Shown piece after piece: positions 9,868-64,000 of a stretch of DNA of 64,000 nucleotides. The position numbers and the translations under genes are program-made. Source of the stretch: Caryophanales bacterium (GTDB taxonomy: Bacteria > Bacillota_I > Bacilli_A > RF39 > UBA660); NCBI GenBank assembly GCA_016288795.1, contig JAEELI010000002.1, forward strand, positions 62,001 through 126,000, given 5' to 3'. Every line of letters begins with the position of its first letter. Within the stretch, counting starts at the first letter, position 1. The notes beneath the pieces are model-generated. The model worked only from the letters and a program-made list of their open reading frames with translations, did no database searches and was not told the origin of the DNA.

Positions 9868-11226
9868 ATGTTAAAATATGAAACAAATTCAAAATTAGTT
9901 CAAAAAGGACAAGTGTTTGTAGCTATCAAGGGGCACACTGTCGATGGTCACGAATATATAGAAGAAGCTATTAAAAATGGAGCTTCTAAAATAATTAGTG
10001 AAAAAGATTTAAATATAAGTGTGCCCTATGAAAAAGTTGAAGATACAAAAAAATATTTAGATGATATATTAGTTAAAGAATATAAAAATGAAATTAATAA
10101 AATAAAAATTATTGGAATTACTGGAACTAATGGTAAAACTACTAGTTGTTTTTTAACATATCAAATGTTACTTAAATTAAATAAAAATGCAGCATATTTA
10201 GGCACTATTGGCTATTATAGAAAAGATTATTATCAAATCATGAATAATACTACTCCAGATATTTTGACTCTATATAAGATACTTATGGACGCTAGAGATA
10301 ATAATGTTGAATACTTAGTTATGGAAGTATCTAGTCATGCTCTATCATATGAAAGAATTAAAGGATTAAAACTAATATGTGGAGCTTTCACTAACTTAAC
10401 TGAAGATCATTTGGATTATCATAAGACAATGGAAGCTTATTTAAATGAAAAATTAAAAATAACAAACTATCTAACTAAAGATGGCGTAATGATACTTAAT
10501 AGTGATGATAAAGCTTCCCAAAGTTTTATGAATAAATATCCAAATTATAAAACTTATGGTTTAAATGGTGATTATAAAATAGTTAATTATGAAATATTAC
10601 CAAATAAAACTAATTTAGAATTCTCTTATGATAATAAAACTTATAATGTAACAACTAATTTAACAAGTAAATTTAATATATATAATTATTTAACTTGCGT
10701 TGGAATCTTAAACAGTATTGGTTTTGAATTAAATGAATTAATAAAAATAACTAAAGATATCTACCCTCCTAAAGGAAGATGCGAAACTTATAAAGTTGGT
10801 AAAGGATATGCAATAGTTGATTATGCTCATACTCCGGATGCTGTTCAAAAAGTTATTGAAGCTTATTTAGAATTAAAACAAAATAGGATAATAACTATTA
10901 TAGGCTGTGGTGGCGATAGAGACCCAATTAAAAGACCTATTATGGGTGATATTGCTACAAAACTATCTGATTATGTTATATTTACTAATGATAATCCTAG
11001 AACAGAAGATCCAGTTAAAATAATGGATGATATTATTAAAGGAGTTCATAGTGACAATTATGAGATTATCCATGATAGAAAGAAAGCCATTATAAAAGGG
11101 ATTGAAATGATGGAAGATAATGATATATTACTAGTTTTAGGTAAAGGTCATGAAGACTATCAAATAATTGGTCATGAGAAAATACATTTTGATGATGCAG
11201 AAATAATTCAAAAATATGAATATTAA
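9868..11226 (+). CDS. murE: UDP-MurNAc-tripeptide synthetase, meso-DAP type
   Basis: MurE adds the third amino acid to UDP-MurNAc-L-Ala-D-Glu in the cytoplasm. The ATP loop GITGTNGKTT lies near residues 86-96. DNPR at 375-378 is the signature associated with meso-diaminopimelate, so the wall is predicted to be DAP type. At 452 residues it is shorter than most MurE; the N-terminal domain begins directly at the part that usually reads DSRxVxxGxxF. The AGAGGTG site and a TATACT box just upstream fit the start. It stands apart from other mur genes. Confidence 0.94.
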   Translation: MLKYETNSKLVQKGQVFVAIKGHTVDGHEYIEEAIKNGASKIISEKDLNISVPYEKVEDTKKYLDDILVKEYKNEINKIKIIGITGTNGKTTSCFLTYQMLLKLNKNAAYLGTIGYYRKDYYQIMNNTTPDILTLYKILMDARDNNVEYLVMEVSSHALSYERIKGLKLICGAFTNLTEDHLDYHKTMEAYLNEKLKITNYLTKDGVMILNSDDKASQSFMNKYPNYKTYGLNGDYKIVNYEILPNKTNLEFSYDNKTYNVTTNLTSKFNIYNYLTCVGILNSIGFELNELIKITKDIYPPKGRCETYKVGKGYAIVDYAHTPDAVQKVIEAYLELKQNRIITIIGCGGDRDPIKRPIMGDIATKLSDYVIFTNDNPRTEDPVKIMDDIIKGVHSDNYEIIHDRKKAIIKGIEMMEDNDILLVLGKGHEDYQIIGHEKIHFDDAEIIQKYEY

Positions 11227-11508: not shown

Positions 11509-11533
11509 AACAGATTATTTATTAATCTGTTTT
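11507..11533. terminator. Bidirectional terminator
   Basis: AAAACAGATTA and TAATCTGTTTT form a symmetric hairpin between the convergent GlsB-family gene and plsC. Confidence 0.8.
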
Positions 11534-12112
11534 ATTTAATTTTATAATCATTTTTCTAACAACATCTTCTAAGTATTTAACTTTATCTTCGTCTTTTATC
11601 TTCTCTACGTATATTGGTTTGCCAAATACTATTTTAGGATGGGAACGAAATTTCCAATTAGATTTCATTGCAAAAGGAATAATTGGAACCCCAGTTTTTT
11701 CAGCAAAACTAATTACTCCAGGTTTAAATGGTAATATCAAATCTTTTTTATGATATGTTCCCTCGGGAAAAATTCCAATAATTTTTCCTCTATTTAATAA
11801 ATCGATTACTTCCTTCTTTGCTTCTGGATTTTTTTGAGAGCGATCTATTCTTATTAGATGCATCATTTTGAAAAACCAAGCAGATGAGCCATCAAACAGT
11901 TCCTTTTTTCCCAAAAAATGAATAGGTCTATTAGTAGCTTTATATAACATGTAAGCATCATAATTGCTTAAATGGTTACCAGCTAGTATATATGCTCCTT
12001 TTTTGGGAATATTTTCCTTTCCTGAAACTTTACCGCCAAACCAAATATTACCTGCAAACTTTATTATATGAGAAACAATTTGATAACCTATATAAGATTT
12101 ATGCTTCCTCAT
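11522..12112 (-). CDS. plsC: 1-acyl-sn-glycerol-3-phosphate acyltransferase-like (left copy)
   Basis: This 196-residue membrane-associated enzyme should transfer an acyl group to lysophosphatidate. Motif I is NHLSNYD (H-x4-D) near residue 47, and motif III FPEGTYHKKD lies near 115. The start overlaps the end of the AMP-ligase gene by 14 bases, so the two are coupled. It is the last gene of a three-gene unit (E2-like acyltransferase, ligase, PlsC) that is repeated in mirror image at 61393-64000. Confidence 0.9.
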   Translation of the reverse strand: MRKHKSYIGYQIVSHIIKFAGNIWFGGKVSGKENIPKKGAYILAGNHLSNYDAYMLYKATNRPIHFLGKKELFDGSSAWFFKMMHLIRIDRSQKNPEAKKEVIDLLNRGKIIGIFPEGTYHKKDLILPFKPGVISFAEKTGVPIIPFAMKSNWKFRSHPKIVFGKPIYVEKIKDEDKVKYLEDVVRKMIIKLNKTD

Positions 12113-13826
12113 TTTTATTTTCCTCTTCTAGTTTAGTAAAAGCAACTTTACCAACTAAAGTTGTAGGTAATTTTTTACGATATTCATAAGATTTAGGTAA
12201 AGAATACTTACTAATATTCTTACGGCATAATTCTTGAATTTCCTTTTTTAATTCTGAAGTTTCCTCAACTCCATCTTTTAAAACAATATAGGCTTTAGCA
12301 ACTTGGCCTTTGTATGGATGAGGAACTCCAATAACTGTACATGCTAAAACGTCTTTATGACTAACAATAACATTTTCAATATATGATGGATATATATTAT
12401 AACCAGAAGATATAATAATTCTTTTTATTCTTTGTTTAAATATAATTATACCTTCTTTAGTCATACAACCAACATCACCGGTATGTAACCACACTTTTCC
12501 ATCATCATGATATCTTAATGTTTGATTGGTTTCTAATTCATTATTTAAATATCCCATCATTACTGTAGGACCACTTATACATATTTCACCATCTTCACCA
12601 AATGGAGCATTTTCATGAGAATCTATTTTAACTATTTTAAAATATGTATCAGGGAATGGTATACCAATGCAACCATCAGCAATATATCCGTCTTCATTTG
12701 TTAAGCAGGTTGCTGCAGTTGCTTCAGTTAGACCAAAACCTGGTCTAACGCTGGCATATGAGCCATGGTCATGAAGATATTCATCAACTTTTTTCTTTAA
12801 CTCTGGAGTTAATATATCTCCCCCAGAGATAACAGCTTCAACACATTCCAAATCATTACTTTTTAATTTTTGTTTTAATAAAGCCTCATATAAAGTTGGA
12901 ACTCCTACTATAAAGTTTGGTTTAGTTCTTTTAATTAAATCACCAAATTGTTTGGCATCAAACTGAGGTATTAATATACATTTCATTGCACTAATTAATG
13001 GAGTATGAATACATACAGCTAAACCAAAGCCGTGAAATATAGGCAATAGTGATAAAACTGAATTACCTGGTATAGTTTGTTTTATCATTTCATGAGCTCC
13101 CAAGGCTAAGGAATTGAAATTAAGATTAGATAGCATAATGCCCTTAGGAGTACCAGTTGTTCCCCCACTATATAGTATTACTGCTAAATCATTAGCTCCT
13201 CTAGCTTCATGACAAACTCCAACAAAATCTGGGGCTGAAGCAATAAAATGATTCCATAAAACTATATCTTCATCATCTTTAGGTATTTTTATTTTTTTCT
13301 TATAATTAGTAACTTTATACAAATAATGCATAAATGGTGGCATTGATGTATCAGGAGATGCCACAATTATTTTTTGCAACTTAGTATTCCTTTTTATTTT
13401 TAATGCTTTTTCTAAGCAACTATCTAAGATAACCATAAATTTAGATTCTGCTTGATTAACATAATTTTCTATTTCTTTTTCTGAAGATAAAGGATGTATC
13501 ATAGATACTACTGCTCCAATTAAATTAACTGCATAAACTGTGCAGATTGCTTCTGGAGTAGATGGCATACAAATAGTTACCCGATCATCTTTGTCCACCC
13601 CATAATTCTTCAATGCTTTAGCAACATCCTCTATTTGTTTCATAAATACTCGATAAGTTATTTTTTTACCAAAGTATTCATAAGCATAATACTCCGGATA
13701 TTTTCTAGATACTGCCATTAAAGCATCAACCATACTACCTGATGGATACTCTAGGTTTGGTCTAGCATCTTGATATTCTTTTAGCCAAGGCCTTAATAAT
13801 TCATCTTTAGTCAATTTTGATTTCAT
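12099..13826 (-). CDS. AMP-dependent acyl ligase (left copy)
   Basis: This protein of about 575 residues activates a carboxylic acid, probably a fatty acid, as an acyl-adenylate and then an acyl thioester. The adenylation loop LYSGGTTGTPKG is clear, as are the GFGLTEAT and LHTGDVG motifs and the C-terminal GKVAFTKL lysine region. I chose the ATG at 13826 because it aligns with the start of the right copy; a GTG nine bases upstream is possible. It overlaps both neighbours, so the acyltransferase, ligase and plsC form one operon. The right copy is at 62243. Confidence 0.92.
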   Translation of the reverse strand: MKSKLTKDELLRPWLKEYQDARPNLEYPSGSMVDALMAVSRKYPEYYAYEYFGKKITYRVFMKQIEDVAKALKNYGVDKDDRVTICMPSTPEAICTVYAVNLIGAVVSMIHPLSSEKEIENYVNQAESKFMVILDSCLEKALKIKRNTKLQKIIVASPDTSMPPFMHYLYKVTNYKKKIKIPKDDEDIVLWNHFIASAPDFVGVCHEARGANDLAVILYSGGTTGTPKGIMLSNLNFNSLALGAHEMIKQTIPGNSVLSLLPIFHGFGLAVCIHTPLISAMKCILIPQFDAKQFGDLIKRTKPNFIVGVPTLYEALLKQKLKSNDLECVEAVISGGDILTPELKKKVDEYLHDHGSYASVRPGFGLTEATAATCLTNEDGYIADGCIGIPFPDTYFKIVKIDSHENAPFGEDGEICISGPTVMMGYLNNELETNQTLRYHDDGKVWLHTGDVGCMTKEGIIIFKQRIKRIIISSGYNIYPSYIENVIVSHKDVLACTVIGVPHPYKGQVAKAYIVLKDGVEETSELKKEIQELCRKNISKYSLPKSYEYRKKLPTTLVGKVAFTKLEEENKNEEA

Positions 13827-14685
13827 CTTTTGCACTACCCTCTAATAATTTTGGATTATTTAATATATGTTGTATTAATTTGACTGACTTAATTAAGTAA
13901 AAACCATCTGAGGTTCTTTCATCCATTGTCATTCCAAATTCGCAATAATATTTTTTTTCAACCTTTCCATTTACTTTTACTTCTTCTTCTTTTATTTCTC
14001 CCATAGTAACTAATCCAGGGCTTGTTCCAAATTCAGTAACATTGTGATAAATACCCCCAAATTTTAAACTACCTAAATTAGATAATATCATACTGCTATA
14101 ATATAAATTATCTTTAACTAATGAAGAAGGTAATTTTCCTTTTTTATCTAACCATTTTAAAAATCCTACAACAGGTATTCTAATTGGATTAGGCATCTTT
14201 CCTAACACATTAATTGCGTCATTCGCACCTTCTCCAGTATCTCCTTCTTTTCTAATACTATTGACCTTATCAGCAATCTTCTTGCCAAATGTCCAAATAT
14301 TATCATCTTCTTCTAAAGGCATAACTACCATTATTTCATCAGATGTATCATTAAAATCTATTTTCATAACAAATGCTAAGCTAACATCATTATGCTCATA
14401 TACATGCCTATTAGCAACAAATCTATTTAATATCGGTCTATTGTATATTGTTTTACCAATAGTCAACGCAAAAGCATGAAAATAAGTTATATTATTACCT
14501 TTTTTCTTTTGATCTTCAATATAGTGAACTAAATTAGTTACATCCATTTTTTGATTTATATAAAGTTCACTCATATATCTTTTGGGTTTTAAATCAATAC
14601 ATATTTGGGTCATGCCACCAATATCGCGACAACGTCTTGCATCTTTTCTATCTCCAAATCTTCTCTTATACTTCTTCTTTTCCAT
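13807..14685 (-). CDS. E2-like (CAT-fold) acyltransferase without the usual catalytic His (left copy)
   Basis: This 292-residue protein has the catalytic-domain fold of 2-oxo acid dehydrogenase E2 and chloramphenicol acetyltransferase, but no lipoyl or subunit-binding domain. The C-terminal active-site segment normally reads DHRxxDG; here it is DERTSDG (residues 255-261), with Glu in place of His. The right copy has the same change, so it is inherited and not a sequencing slip. It is the first gene of the operon with the AMP-ligase and PlsC, which suggests acyl transfer in lipid or envelope synthesis. Substrate unknown. Confidence 0.85.
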   Translation of the reverse strand: MEKKKYKRRFGDRKDARRCRDIGGMTQICIDLKPKRYMSELYINQKMDVTNLVHYIEDQKKKGNNITYFHAFALTIGKTIYNRPILNRFVANRHVYEHNDVSLAFVMKIDFNDTSDEIMVVMPLEEDDNIWTFGKKIADKVNSIRKEGDTGEGANDAINVLGKMPNPIRIPVVGFLKWLDKKGKLPSSLVKDNLYYSSMILSNLGSLKFGGIYHNVTEFGTSPGLVTMGEIKEEEVKVNGKVEKKYYCEFGMTMDERTSDGFYLIKSVKLIQHILNNPKLLEGSAKDEIKID

Positions 14686-14705
14686 ACTTACCCTTTCATT
14701 TTATG

Positions 14706-14733
14706 TTGAAATATTTTTTATCTATGCTATAAT
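14706..14733 (+). promoter_or_regulatory. tRNA-Gly promoter (left)
   Basis: TTGAAA (14706-14711) and TATAAT (14728-14733) are 16 bases apart, 12 bases before the tRNA. The right-arm tRNA-Gly has the same boxes and spacing. Confidence 0.85.
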
Positions 14734-14745
14734 AGTTTACGTAAC

Positions 14746-14819
14746 GCAGGTGTAGTTTAATGGTAGAACTATAGCCTTCCAAGCTATTAACGTGGGTTCG
14801 ATTCCCATCACCTGCTCCA
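14746..14819 (+). tRNA. tRNA-Gly(TCC), left copy
   Basis: A 74-base cloverleaf with acceptor GCAGGTG/CACCTGC, anticodon loop CTTCCAA and encoded CCA. Its last 16 bases are the start of a 158-base direct repeat (14804-14961 and 16039-16196). Confidence 0.97.
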
Positions 14820-14961
14820 TAGATTATTCAAAAGTCCGTTTATTCGGGCTTTTTTCATTTTCTAAATATCAAAATTACAACTTTTTTTATTATCTAATAA
14901 AATCTGCGATAATTCTCCCAAAATAATTCAACCTTCCAACATCAATTATATCATATTTATT
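14804..14961 (+). repeat. 158-bp direct repeat, copy 1 (tRNA-Gly 3' end plus downstream)
   Basis: This copy holds the last 16 bases of tRNA-Gly, its terminator and about 105 further bases. It matches 16039-16196 with three mismatches and no gaps. The pair brackets the 274-residue gene at 15057-15881, with an offset of 1235 bases. Confidence 0.95.
14831..14855 (+). terminator. tRNA-Gly terminator
   Basis: AGTCCG / CGGGCT stem with T6. It is duplicated at 16066-16090 inside repeat copy 2. Confidence 0.85.
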
Positions 14962-14983
14962 ATTTTTTTATATAAAAACATTT

Positions 14984-15007
14984 AAAAAGATGAGCAAACA
15001 CTCATCC
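14984..15007 (-). terminator. Terminator after the 274-residue gene
   Basis: GATGAG / CTCATC hairpin followed by T5 on the minus strand, 50 bases after the stop. Confidence 0.7.
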
Positions 15008-15056
15008 ATAGCTTATAATTTAAATTTCTATTTTATTATTAACAATAAAACAATTA

Positions 15057-15881
15057 TTATTGATTATGTGTATTAAAACACCATGAAGCCAAGTCGTGAT
15101 TAACATAACAATAACTGCCACTTCCTACTACTACGCGTCCATCATCATGAATATAAATATATAGATCATCAAAATTAGACTCTTCTTTTTGACATAAAAC
15201 ATAATTTTGATTTTCTTGATCAGTTTTTGCACAAGTCCACCCAACTTTTTCAAATTTCGTTTTATAATCACTAACATTATTCCAATCATTAGGTTTTACG
15301 CATATAGTATTACTATTAGTTATAATACAAGCTTCACTATCAATTCTATCATATTTGTATCCAGTTTCATGTTCTACACATTTATAATAACTACCTTCTC
15401 CAATGTATATGTTAGAACTTCCATCACATTTTAAACCTTTATTAATATAACTTGAAAAAAAGTTGTTAAAGTCTTCTTTTGAATAAAAACCATATGTGAA
15501 ATACTCAATTGTATCTTTATCACTTTCATATGTACCATAAAAAACCTCGATTACAGGATTTGCTGATATGGCCTCACTAATAGTTTCTTTTATAAAGAAT
15601 TTTTTGTTTAGTGTTTTATAATCACTCACTTTTTTTGCTAAAGAACTTGGTGTAAACTCACCATTTTCCTCAATACTGTAATACATTACTTTGTTACTTG
15701 AACTATTACTCTGTTCTCTTTTTTCTGTTTCATCATTGTTTATTGGTAATTGTTTATTATTCGTTTTATAAAAAAAATAACCTATACCTATACCAATTAA
15801 TACAACTACTCCAATTAAAATAATATATAATGATATATTATTTTTCTTTTTTTCAACATTTTGAATATTATTTTCTTCCAC
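15057..15881 (-). CDS. Membrane-anchored Cys-rich extracellular protein between direct repeats
   Basis: This 274-residue protein has a short cytoplasmic tail, one membrane helix (about 17-38) and a polar extracellular part with about nine Cys, likely in disulfides (for example near CDGSSN, YYKCVE, EACII, TICVKP, WTCAK, LCQKE). No family is recognised. It has its own promoter (TTGCAT at 15932-15937 and TATAAT at 15909-15914 on the minus strand, 17 bases apart). It has no partner in the right arm and sits between 158-base repeats that begin inside tRNA-Gly, so it looks like inserted cargo. No recombinase is present. Confidence 0.75.
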   Translation of the reverse strand: MEENNIQNVEKKKNNISLYIILIGVVVLIGIGIGYFFYKTNNKQLPINNDETEKREQSNSSSNKVMYYSIEENGEFTPSSLAKKVSDYKTLNKKFFIKETISEAISANPVIEVFYGTYESDKDTIEYFTYGFYSKEDFNNFFSSYINKGLKCDGSSNIYIGEGSYYKCVEHETGYKYDRIDSEACIITNSNTICVKPNDWNNVSDYKTKFEKVGWTCAKTDQENQNYVLCQKEESNFDDLYIYIHDDGRVVVGSGSYCYVNHDLASWCFNTHNQ

Positions 15882-15908
15882 AATAAATCAACCTCTCAAA
15901 CCAGTTTA

Positions 15909-15937
15909 ATTATATTATGCTTTTTTAATTCATGCAA
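15909..15937 (-). promoter_or_regulatory. Promoter of the 274-residue gene
   Basis: TTGCAT, 17 bases, TATAAT on the minus strand. Just upstream (15959-15979) the tandem CCGGTAATT-CA-CCGGTAATT also reads as a CCGGT/ACCGG hairpin and could be an operator. Confidence 0.65.
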
Positions 15938-16026
15938 TATCTCAAGCCATAATTTTTCCCCGGTAATTCACCGGTAATTTTATTCATATTATTTTATAAA
16001 ACAATGTATTTATGGGCATTAAAAAA

Positions 16027-16224
16027 ACAAGTAACAAACCCATCACCTGCTCCATAAATTATTCAAAAGTCCGTATATTCGGGCTTTTTTCATTTTCTAA
16101 ATATCAAAATTACAACTTTTTTTATTATCTAATAAAATCTGCGATAATTCTCCCAAAATAATTCAACCTTCCAACATTAATTATATCATATTTATTGATA
16201 ATATAATACATATTTGTTACTTGT
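16027..16224. repeat. 12-bp inverted repeats around direct-repeat copy 2
   Basis: ACAAGTAACAAA at 16027-16038 and its exact reverse complement at 16213-16224 flank repeat copy 2. The left arm of the inverted repeat abuts the copy at base 16038/16039 exactly; 16 bases separate the other side. Confidence 0.85.
16039..16196 (+). repeat. 158-bp direct repeat, copy 2 (tRNA-Gly 3' fragment)
   Basis: Starts at CCCATCACCTGCTCCA, the 3' end of tRNA-Gly without the rest of the tRNA, and runs through the tRNA terminator and the same downstream sequence as copy 1. The 400-base gap 15882-16289 holds only this repeat, its inverted-repeat borders and the promoter above. Confidence 0.95.
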
Positions 16225-16242
16225 AAAATAAATAATTGTATT

Positions 16243-61367: not shown

Positions 61368-61392
61368 GTAGAAAGTTATGGTGAGGTATAAA

Positions 61393-62268
61393 ATGGCTAA
61401 GTATAAGAGAAGATTTGGGGATAGGAAAGATGCTAGAAGAGTAAGAGATATTAAGGGAATGAATCAAATATGTATTGATCTTAAACCTACTAGATATATG
61501 AGTGAGTTATATCTAAATGAAAAAGTGGATGTTACTAATCTAGTTAAGTATATTAAAGAGGAAAAAGAAAAAGGAAATAAAATTACATATTTCCATGCTT
61601 TTTCTTTAGCTATTGGTAAGACTATATATAATAGACCATTACTAAATAGATTTGTTGCTAATAGACATATATATGAGCATAATGACGTTTCATTATCATT
61701 TGTTATGAAAATAGATTTTACAGATAAGTCTGAAGAATTAATGGTAGTTATGCCAGTAGAAGAAAAAGATAATATTTTCTCTTGGAGTGAAAAAATTGGT
61801 AATAAAGTTAATAGTATAAGAGAGAAAAAAGATTCTGGAACTGGCGCTAATGATATAATACAAATAGTTGGAAAAATGCCTAATCTTATTAGAATTCCTA
61901 TAGTTGGATTCTTGAAATGGTTAGATAAAATAGGTAAATTACCTTCTTCTATAATAGAAGATAATTTATATTATAGTAGTATGATATTATCTAATTTAGG
62001 AAGTTTAAAATGTGGAGCAATATATCATAATGTTACTGAATTTGGAACTTGTCCTGGACTTATAACAATGGGAGAAATAAAAGAAGAAGAAGTTATTATT
62101 AATGGTAAAAAAGAAAAGAGATATTTCTGTGACTTTGGTATGACTATGGACGAAAGAACTTCTGATGGATTTTATTTAATTAAGTCAATAAAATTAATGG
62201 AATATATATTAGATAATCCAAAACTACTAGAGGGTAAAGCAAATGAAAAGATTGAATTCGAAGGATAA
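61393..62268 (+). CDS. E2-like (CAT-fold) acyltransferase without the usual catalytic His (right copy)
   Basis: About 291 residues from the ATG at 61393 (GAGGT site). It aligns with the left copy along its length (YKRRFGDRKDARR, TYFHAFSLAIGKTIYNRP, GSLKCGAIYHNVTEFGTCPG). The active-site segment reads DERTSDG, again with Glu in place of the usual His. It overlaps the AMP-ligase by 26 bases, so the operon is preserved in both arms. Confidence 0.86.
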   Translation: MAKYKRRFGDRKDARRVRDIKGMNQICIDLKPTRYMSELYLNEKVDVTNLVKYIKEEKEKGNKITYFHAFSLAIGKTIYNRPLLNRFVANRHIYEHNDVSLSFVMKIDFTDKSEELMVVMPVEEKDNIFSWSEKIGNKVNSIREKKDSGTGANDIIQIVGKMPNLIRIPIVGFLKWLDKIGKLPSSIIEDNLYYSSMILSNLGSLKCGAIYHNVTEFGTCPGLITMGEIKEEEVIINGKKEKRYFCDFGMTMDERTSDGFYLIKSIKLMEYILDNPKLLEGKANEKIEFEG

Positions 62269-63961
62269 AGATAATAGATTATGGATTAATGAATATCATA
62301 ATGTTAGACCTAATTTAGAGTATCCAGACTGTAGTATAGTAGATGCTTTAATGGCTGTATCAAGAAAGTATCCTGAATATTTTGCTTATGAATATTTTGG
62401 TAAAAAAGTTACTTACAGAGAATTTATGCGACAAATTGAAGATGTTGCAAAATCGCTTAAGAATTATGGCGTAGGTAAGGGTGATAGAGTAACTGTTTGC
62501 ATGCCTAGCACTCCTGAGGCGATTGCTACTATTTATGGGGTTAATTTAATTGGGGCAGTAGCATGTATGATTCATCCATTATCTAGCGAAAAAGAGATAG
62601 AGAATTATGTTAATCAATCTAAATCTACTTTTATGGTAACTTTAGATAGTACTTTAGAAAAAGTATTAAATATAAAAAGAAATACTAAATTACAAAAAAT
62701 AATAGTGGCTAGTCCTGATACATCTATGCCACCACTTAAACATTATTTATATAAAATAACTCATTATAAAAGAAAAGTTAGAATGCCTAAAAATGATGAA
62801 GATATAGTATTATGGAATAATTTTGTTAGTAGCGCTCCATCATATGTTGGAGTATGTCATGAAGCTAGTGGTGCTAATGATCCTGCAGTTATTCTATATA
62901 GTGGAGGAACTACTGGAACACCTAAAGGGATAGTATTATCAAACTTGAATTTTAATGCTCTAGCTTATGGAGCTCATGAAATGATAGAAGAAACTATGCC
63001 TGGTAATTCAATCTTATCTCTTCTTCCTATATTTCATGGATTTGGACTTGCTGTATGTATTCATGCACCTTTACTTTCTGGAATGAAATGTATTTTAATA
63101 CCACAGTTTAATTCTAAACAATTTGGAGATATTATTAAAAAGACTAAACCCAACTTCTTAGTTGGAGTACCAACTTTATTTGAAGCATTATTAAAGCAAA
63201 AGTTAAGGCCTAAAGATTTAGAGTGTGTTGAAGGAGCTATTTCAGGTGGAGATATATTATCATCTTCACTTAAAAAAAGAGTAGATGCTTATTTAAAAGC
63301 TCATAGTTCTTATGCTGAGGTTAGACCAGGATATGGTCTTACTGAAGCAACTGCATCAGTTTGTTTAACTAATAAAGGAGAATATATTAATAATGGAATA
63401 GGTATTCCTTTTCCAGATACATATTTTAAAATAGTAAAACCAGAAAATCATGAAGAAGCTAAAATAGGTGAGTATGGAGAAATATGTATTAGTGGCCCTA
63501 CTGTAATGATGGGATACTTAAATAATGATAAAGAAACTAATCAAGTACTAAGATATCATGATGATAAAAGATTATGGTTGCACACTGGTGATATTGGAGC
63601 TATGACTTCAAATGGTAATATTATATTTAAGCAAAGAATGAAAAGAATTATTATTTCTAGTGGATATAATATTTATCCATCATATATAGAAAGTGTTATT
63701 TTATCTCATAAAGATGTAGCATCTTGTACTGTAATAGGTGTTCCTCATAAATATAAAGGTCAAGTTGCTAAAGCATTTATAGTATTAAAAGATGGTAAAG
63801 AAGTTAATTCAGAAATAAAAAGAGAAATACAAGAATTATGTAAAAAGAATATTAGTAAATATGCATTACCAAAAGAATTTGAATATCGTAAAAAATTACC
63901 AACAACTTTAATAGGAAAAGTAGCTTTTACCAAATTAGAGGAGGAAAATGATGAAAAATAG
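62243..63961 (+). CDS. AMP-dependent acyl ligase (right copy)
   Basis: 572 residues with adenylation loop LYSGGTTGTPKG, GYGLTEAT, LHTGDIG and the C-terminal GKVAFTKL region. It starts inside the acyltransferase gene behind GAGGG and ends in TAG within the start of plsC. Together these form a coupled three-gene unit for activating and transferring an acyl chain. By eye the right and left ligases are very similar. Confidence 0.93.
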   Translation: MKRLNSKDKDNRLWINEYHNVRPNLEYPDCSIVDALMAVSRKYPEYFAYEYFGKKVTYREFMRQIEDVAKSLKNYGVGKGDRVTVCMPSTPEAIATIYGVNLIGAVACMIHPLSSEKEIENYVNQSKSTFMVTLDSTLEKVLNIKRNTKLQKIIVASPDTSMPPLKHYLYKITHYKRKVRMPKNDEDIVLWNNFVSSAPSYVGVCHEASGANDPAVILYSGGTTGTPKGIVLSNLNFNALAYGAHEMIEETMPGNSILSLLPIFHGFGLAVCIHAPLLSGMKCILIPQFNSKQFGDIIKKTKPNFLVGVPTLFEALLKQKLRPKDLECVEGAISGGDILSSSLKKRVDAYLKAHSSYAEVRPGYGLTEATASVCLTNKGEYINNGIGIPFPDTYFKIVKPENHEEAKIGEYGEICISGPTVMMGYLNNDKETNQVLRYHDDKRLWLHTGDIGAMTSNGNIIFKQRMKRIIISSGYNIYPSYIESVILSHKDVASCTVIGVPHKYKGQVAKAFIVLKDGKEVNSEIKREIQELCKKNISKYALPKEFEYRKKLPTTLIGKVAFTKLEEENDEK

Positions 63962-64000
63962 TTATATTGGTTATCATATTGTTTCTGGTGTAATAAAGTT
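63951..64000 (+). CDS. plsC: plsC-like acyltransferase, start only (right copy)
   Basis: The window ends 17 codons into this gene. MKNSYIGYHIVSGVIKF matches the start of the left copy (KSYIGYQIVSHIIKF). An AGAGGAGG site lies upstream; an ATG three bases earlier is also possible. It shows the mirror continues past the window edge. Confidence 0.85.
   Translation, partial: MKNSYIGYHIVSGVIK

Follow-up and report, generated by a model that had tools for sequence, protein, structure and literature searches.

An E2-fold protein family with glutamate at the catalytic histidine position, linked to lipid genes in gut bacteria

Proteins shaped like the catalytic core of E2, and always carrying glutamate at the position of the catalytic histidine, make up a family that is widespread among gut bacteria. 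Two members are encoded in the window, by which we mean the whole 64,000-nucleotide stretch of DNA analyzed here (G000:C5:62001-126000), part of a 0.98-Mb genome in 22 contigs. We give about even chances to our preferred explanation: that these proteins are membrane-associated, acyl-CoA-dependent O-acyltransferases of the CAT/E2 fold, which would use the glutamate as base and acylate glycerolipids together with a ligase and PlsC.

The open reading frames of the window include two E2-like/AMP-ligase/PlsC units, as the first-pass annotation had described; the units are in inverted orientation, ∼47 kb apart. Unit 1 lies on the reverse strand. It consists of an E2/CAT-fold acyltransferase-like gene (positions 13807 to 14685; 292 amino acids), an AMP-forming fatty acyl ligase gene (12099 to 13835; 578 amino acids) with intact signature motifs YSGGTTGTPKG and HTGD, and a PlsC-family acyltransferase gene (11522 to 12112; 196 amino acids) with intact NHLSNYD (HX4D) and FPEGT motifs. 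The E2-like and ligase genes overlap by 29 nucleotides, and the ligase and PlsC genes overlap by 14. Residues 255 to 261 of the E2-like protein (13903 to 13923, reverse strand) read DERTSDG (D255-E256-R257-T-S-D260-G261), which places E256 at the catalytic histidine position. Unit 2, on the forward strand, comprises an E2-like gene (61378 to 62268), a ligase gene (62243 to 63961), and a 191-amino-acid PlsC gene (63948 to about 64524; L007:4949-5524), of which only positions 63948 to 64000 fall inside the window, the gene ending about 524 nucleotides past it. DERTSDG in place of DHRxxDG, the substitution first noted by that annotation, is present in both E2-like proteins. These are 76% identical, and a tree of 141 homologues pairs them as sister paralogues (SH-aLRT, 99).

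Both E2-like proteins matched PF00198, and nothing else, above the Pfam cut-off, the ligases matched PF00501 and PF13193, and PlsC matched PF01553. No lipoyl or subunit-binding domain was detected by Pfam in either E2-like protein, in agreement with the earlier reading, and the 292 residues of the unit 1 protein are accounted for by the core plus an insertion. There are no PF00198 proteins in the genome beyond these two, and so no ordinary E2 was found there. A true pyruvate dehydrogenase (PDH) E2 was ruled out by the missing lipoyl domain together with the lack of any other PF00198 protein.

Elsewhere in this genome, a third ligase and PlsC pair without an E2-like gene (L008:5820-8246; G000:C10 about 122819-125245) sits between a gene for a short gtrA-like membrane protein and murF. 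A murE-type gene (window 9868 to 11226, forward strand) adjoins unit 1 on the opposite strand, and 13 of 75 related loci also have a Mur-ligase gene close to the E2-like one. At G000:C3 about 11965-16227, genes for a carrier protein, a 532-amino-acid AMP-ligase, and a PF01553 protein lie close together, perhaps as a dlt-type cluster. A search for defense systems with PADLOC gave no match.

The E2-like protein is confidently predicted to have the E2/CAT fold. Searches with a profile built from 31 members retrieved solved E2 cores (3mae, 7e-11; 1b5s, 3e-9), and in the profile alignment E256 falls on the catalytic histidine of DHRxxDG. An AlphaFold2 model built with 74 window and contig sequences (pLDDT, 94.1; pTM, 0.91) was compared with solved structures by VIA-align, which superposed it on E2 cores (Z about 20 to 22, about 200 residues, rmsd 2 to 3) and on CAT I (1pd5; Z 19.3, 206 residues, rmsd 2.9); Foldseek agrees on the fold. 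Relative to E2 cores, the model has an insertion of about 30 residues at about 148 to 190, and in the alignment to 1b5s the family has 41 to 48 residues where E2 has about 9. Within it, helix 166-181 is hydrophobic and amphipathic across the family (mean hydrophobicity, 0.70; moment, 0.44), making it a candidate membrane contact.

To collect homologues, we searched 145 genomes of the window's taxonomic family (here, the host family) with the protein, which gave 30 positives, and 392 genomes of the phylum with a profile, which gave 105 positives at an E value of ≤1e-3; the weak profile matches for the most part cover the C-terminal end alone, and those are probably ordinary E2 proteins. A further 80 loci came from contigs of named genomes, and 85 positives at 1e-15 came from 291 genomes of the class to which a Clostridia member belongs. 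Among 156 distinct homologues, with a median pairwise identity of 37% and a minimum of 19%, residues D255, E256, G261, K108, H214, and P278 are present in all 156; R36, P186, G229, and G220 in 155; and R257, N87, and D260 in 154. Position 202 is serine in 122 and threonine in 28, hence Ser/Thr in 150/156. The contig loci were chosen with patterns that included DER..DG and are therefore a biased test of the glutamate. A fairer one comes from the host family, phylum, and Clostridia-class samples, in which loci were retrieved with the whole protein or a profile; all of these loci have glutamate. Retention of the change, as the first-pass annotation had supposed, extends to all 156 homologues, which rules out a sporadic mutation or pseudogene. 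Judged from these alignments, glutamate for histidine is a signature of the family and not a lesion. We found no description of such an E2-like family in the open-access full texts that we searched.

Two observations on distribution stand apart. A different family in this class, also of small genomes, has an E2-like protein (L153:1513-2799, reverse strand) that reads DQRIIDA where E2 has DHRxxDG, apparently a different loss of the catalytic histidine. Contigs titled "Candidatus Saccharibacteria" (L056, L061-L064, L068, and L070) also carry the family; their copies cluster deep within the Bacilli clade of the tree, and the titles are probably wrong.

We then related the family to its gene neighbors. 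Of 167 loci (about 7 of them repeats), 64 have a ligase homologue encoded directly after the E2-like gene, with both genes on one strand: by set, it follows directly in 27/80 named-genome loci, 12/29 host family loci, and 17/30 Clostridia-class loci. The stop-to-stop open reading frame overlap has a median of about 33 nucleotides in the Bacilli and Clostridia sets. Distances among E2-like proteins and among their ligases are correlated (r = 0.79 over 59 pairs; at most 0.25 in 1,000 permutations), which points mainly to joint inheritance. PlsC follows the E2-like gene directly in 8 loci, all in the same small clade of the tree as the window copies, and so the ligase between them was gained or lost recently there. 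In over half of the homologous loci the next gene downstream is not a ligase gene, and many members lack lipid genes in their neighborhood altogether. The operon of the first-pass annotation recurs, but it is one of several arrangements, and many members stand alone. The remaining flanks are mostly housekeeping genes that vary by lineage, and we gave them up as a source of functional clues.

Membrane-protein partners occur as well. A PlsC-like gene is followed by one for a PAP2-like membrane protein in three Clostridia-class genomes. The PAP2-like protein is separate from the E2-like protein, in an operon, in L187 and is fused to it in L185 and L186. The PAP2 matches are below the Pfam gathering cut-off (E about 1e-3), a PSLH...H...D motif is present, and a sequence comparison of the PAP2-like domain with solved structures gave no match. 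In another member (L184:2345-3766, forward strand), the fusion partner is a polytopic membrane domain of a different kind, for which Pfam gave no match. In some Clostridia, a gene for a metallo-beta-lactamase-fold protein lies between the ligase and E2-like genes. The lipid connection drawn in the first-pass annotation is thus supported by independent gene associations, namely, ligase, PlsC, and PAP2-like fusion.

At the genome level, PlsX and PlsY were each detected in 0 of 145 host family genomes, with controls positive in 8 of 14. PF01553 acyltransferases were found in 84 of the 145, comprising 27/30 E2-positive and 57/115 E2-negative genomes (P = 5e-5, relatedness ignored); three E2-positive genomes have no PF01553 match. 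PF00501 was found in 30/30 E2-positive and 80/115 E2-negative genomes (P = 1.7e-4, relatedness ignored). The absence of PlsX and PlsY, combined with the 61 of 145 genomes in which no PF01553 acyltransferase was matched, indicates that phospholipid synthesis in the host family proceeds by another route or that uptake replaces it. Carrier-protein domains occur in 23/145 host family genomes, including 7 of the 30 E2-positive ones; since a carrier protein was undetected in the other 23 of these 30, CoA is the likely acyl donor in most of them. Outside the host family sample, 34 of 44 E2-positive genomes are without PlsY, and the 10 that have it imply that the E2-like protein is no plain replacement for PlsX/PlsY.

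Known enzymes of the fold suggest how such a site might work. Lewendon et al. in 1994, as cited in PMC5986005, reportedly replaced His195 of CAT, and His195Glu provides a mutational precedent for glutamate as general base. In Escherichia coli E2o, about 60% of activity is kept by His375Trp and about 2% by His375Ala (PMC5986005). CAT His195Glu and E2o His375Trp together make glutamate compatible with ordinary acyl transfer, so that exotic chemistry is unneeded. The CAT base His195 (saCAT1 His189) is supplied by one protomer and the oxyanion Ser148 (saCAT1 Ser142) by the other, and the acceptor pocket is formed by Leu154, Ile156, and Asn158 on the Ser-bearing protomer, with Phe152 also for fusidic acid (PMC12549896). 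S202 of the E2-like protein corresponds to the CAT oxyanion serine by sequence register, not superposition. A histidine elsewhere that might fill the active site, which would count against the first-pass annotation, is the invariant H214, 12 residues after S202 within loop 204-223 of the model. In saCAT1, residues Ser142+10, +12, and +14 (to +16) form the wall of the acceptor pocket across from the other protomer's catalytic histidine. By analogy, the lining of the acceptor pocket is predicted to include H214, and E256 of one chain would face S202 and H214 of its neighbor; the register is uncertain here because the loop carries insertions that CAT and E2 do not have.

In the mechanism that we propose, the ligase would activate fatty acids, mostly exogenous, to acyl-CoA, after which the E2-like enzyme and PlsC would attach acyl groups in ester linkage to glycerolipid-type acceptors. 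E256 would replace the usual histidine as general base at the subunit interface of a probable trimer, S/T202 of the neighboring subunit would stabilize the oxyanion, and H214, in the loop after S202, would pair with E256 or position the acceptor.

The division of labor between E256 and H214 could also be reversed. The base of the same acyltransferase may be H214 of the neighbor subunit, oriented by E256 in a Glu-His dyad across the interface, in which case the glutamate would be part of a rearranged, not a replaced, catalytic apparatus. The presence of H214 in 156/156 homologues, at S202+12 where saCAT1 Ser142+10 to +16 line the pocket, fits this arrangement, but the loop insertions leave the register uncertain, and H214 could equally well bind a lipid phosphate; we hold this alternative to be possible but rather doubtful. 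A noncatalytic trimeric scaffold that brings the ligase together with PlsC on the membrane, in the manner of the E2-derived E3-binding protein (E3BP), would account for the lost catalytic histidine and for the tight gene overlap with the ligase and PlsC, and the E3BP core (6h60) is among the structural matches. Such a protein would be expected to show drift in the active site, yet the family always has Glu and retains D255, R257, D260, S/T202, K108, and R36, and for many homologues there is no neighboring ligase or PlsC to gather. We therefore judge the scaffold to be unlikely. The first-pass annotation had offered a working enzyme of different chemistry or a scaffold: the invariance of the remaining active-site positions speaks against the scaffold, and different chemistry is not needed.

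Activities other than the one we prefer would also be compatible with parts of the genomic record. That the E2-like protein is a glycerol-3-phosphate acyltransferase standing in for PlsX and PlsY seems improbable: both are absent from 145/145 host family genomes and PlsY from 34/44 other E2-positive genomes, but the E2-like gene is present in only 30 of the 145 host family genomes, all PlsY-less, ten E2-positive genomes keep PlsY, and tandem PlsC genes and the ligase-PlsC unit without E2 (L008) could do the job. We find it more improbable still that the protein is a hydrolase of acyl-CoA or acyl-adenylate that proofreads or drains the ligase. Glutamate can activate water, as it would have to here, and both the coupling to the ligase and the intervening metallo-beta-lactamase-fold gene in some Clostridia would suit a hydrolase, but a soluble thioesterase needs neither an amphipathic insertion nor fusion to a membrane domain.

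If glutamate is indeed the base in an acyltransferase of this kind, the family is a natural Glu-for-His version of a much-studied acyltransferase fold, in which a laboratory CAT mutant is the wild type, and it also matters for membrane construction in gut Bacilli that have neither PlsX nor PlsY. More tentatively, we suggest that it may be an undescribed large Bacillota acyltransferase family that acylates membrane lipids together with ligase, PlsC, or PAP2-like partners, making a lipid class unrecognized in PlsX/PlsY-less gut bacteria. The route for exogenous fatty acids in Firmicutes runs through acyl-phosphate and PlsY, and the PlsY of that route is absent from the host family. RF39 Bacilli, which are without fatty-acid synthesis, were suggested by Nayfach et al. 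to incorporate exogenous fatty acids by a mechanism recently described in Firmicutes (PMC6784871). E2-like proteins of this family are apt to be labeled "2-oxo acid dehydrogenase subunit E2," and they are no evidence for pyruvate dehydrogenase in these genomes.

The family can be compared with several known systems. It shares with the E2 catalytic core PF00198 (3mae, 1b5s, and 3l60) the predicted fold (Z about 22), the order of elements, the DxRxxDG motif frame, and a Ser/Thr at the oxyanion position; it differs in having glutamate for histidine, no lipoyl or subunit-binding domain, an amphipathic insertion, and lipid genes among its neighbors. Because the lipoyl/subunit-binding domain and the catalytic histidine are both missing, we do not count it as E2 in a functional sense. 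E3BP/PDHX of PDH complexes has lost its catalytic histidine and shares the E2-core fold, with 6h60 among the structural matches, but it serves the PDH complex, whereas the active-site set of the E2-like family is otherwise invariant or nearly so and not degenerate. The WS/DGAT and condensation-domain acyltransferases belong, like the E2-like family, to the HHxxxDG superfamily and have the acyl-CoA to lipid hydroxyl chemistry that we propose for it; they are two-lobed and carry HHxxxDG, and the window E2-like proteins have no Pfam match to them. Aas and LplT-Aas are of the PRK08633 type, a fused acyl-acyl carrier protein synthetase/lysophospholipid acyltransferase. The window ligase (191.7 bits) and PlsC (87.8 bits) match the corresponding parts, scores well under the curated cut-off of 1221; the window encodes them as separate open reading frames, not one polypeptide, and adds the E2-like protein as a third member. 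Type A CAT is likewise lipoyl-less, with about 200 matched residues (Z 19.3) and Ser/Thr at the Ser148 equivalent, and the proposed likeness extends to the chemistry, in which an acyl group passes from acyl-CoA to a hydroxyl where subunits meet. CAT has His195 in HHxxxDG, whereas the E2-like family has DExxxDG and no drug-resistance context, and because the catalytic histidine is missing, we do not assign it to CAT, but the E2-like protein most likely works like CAT.
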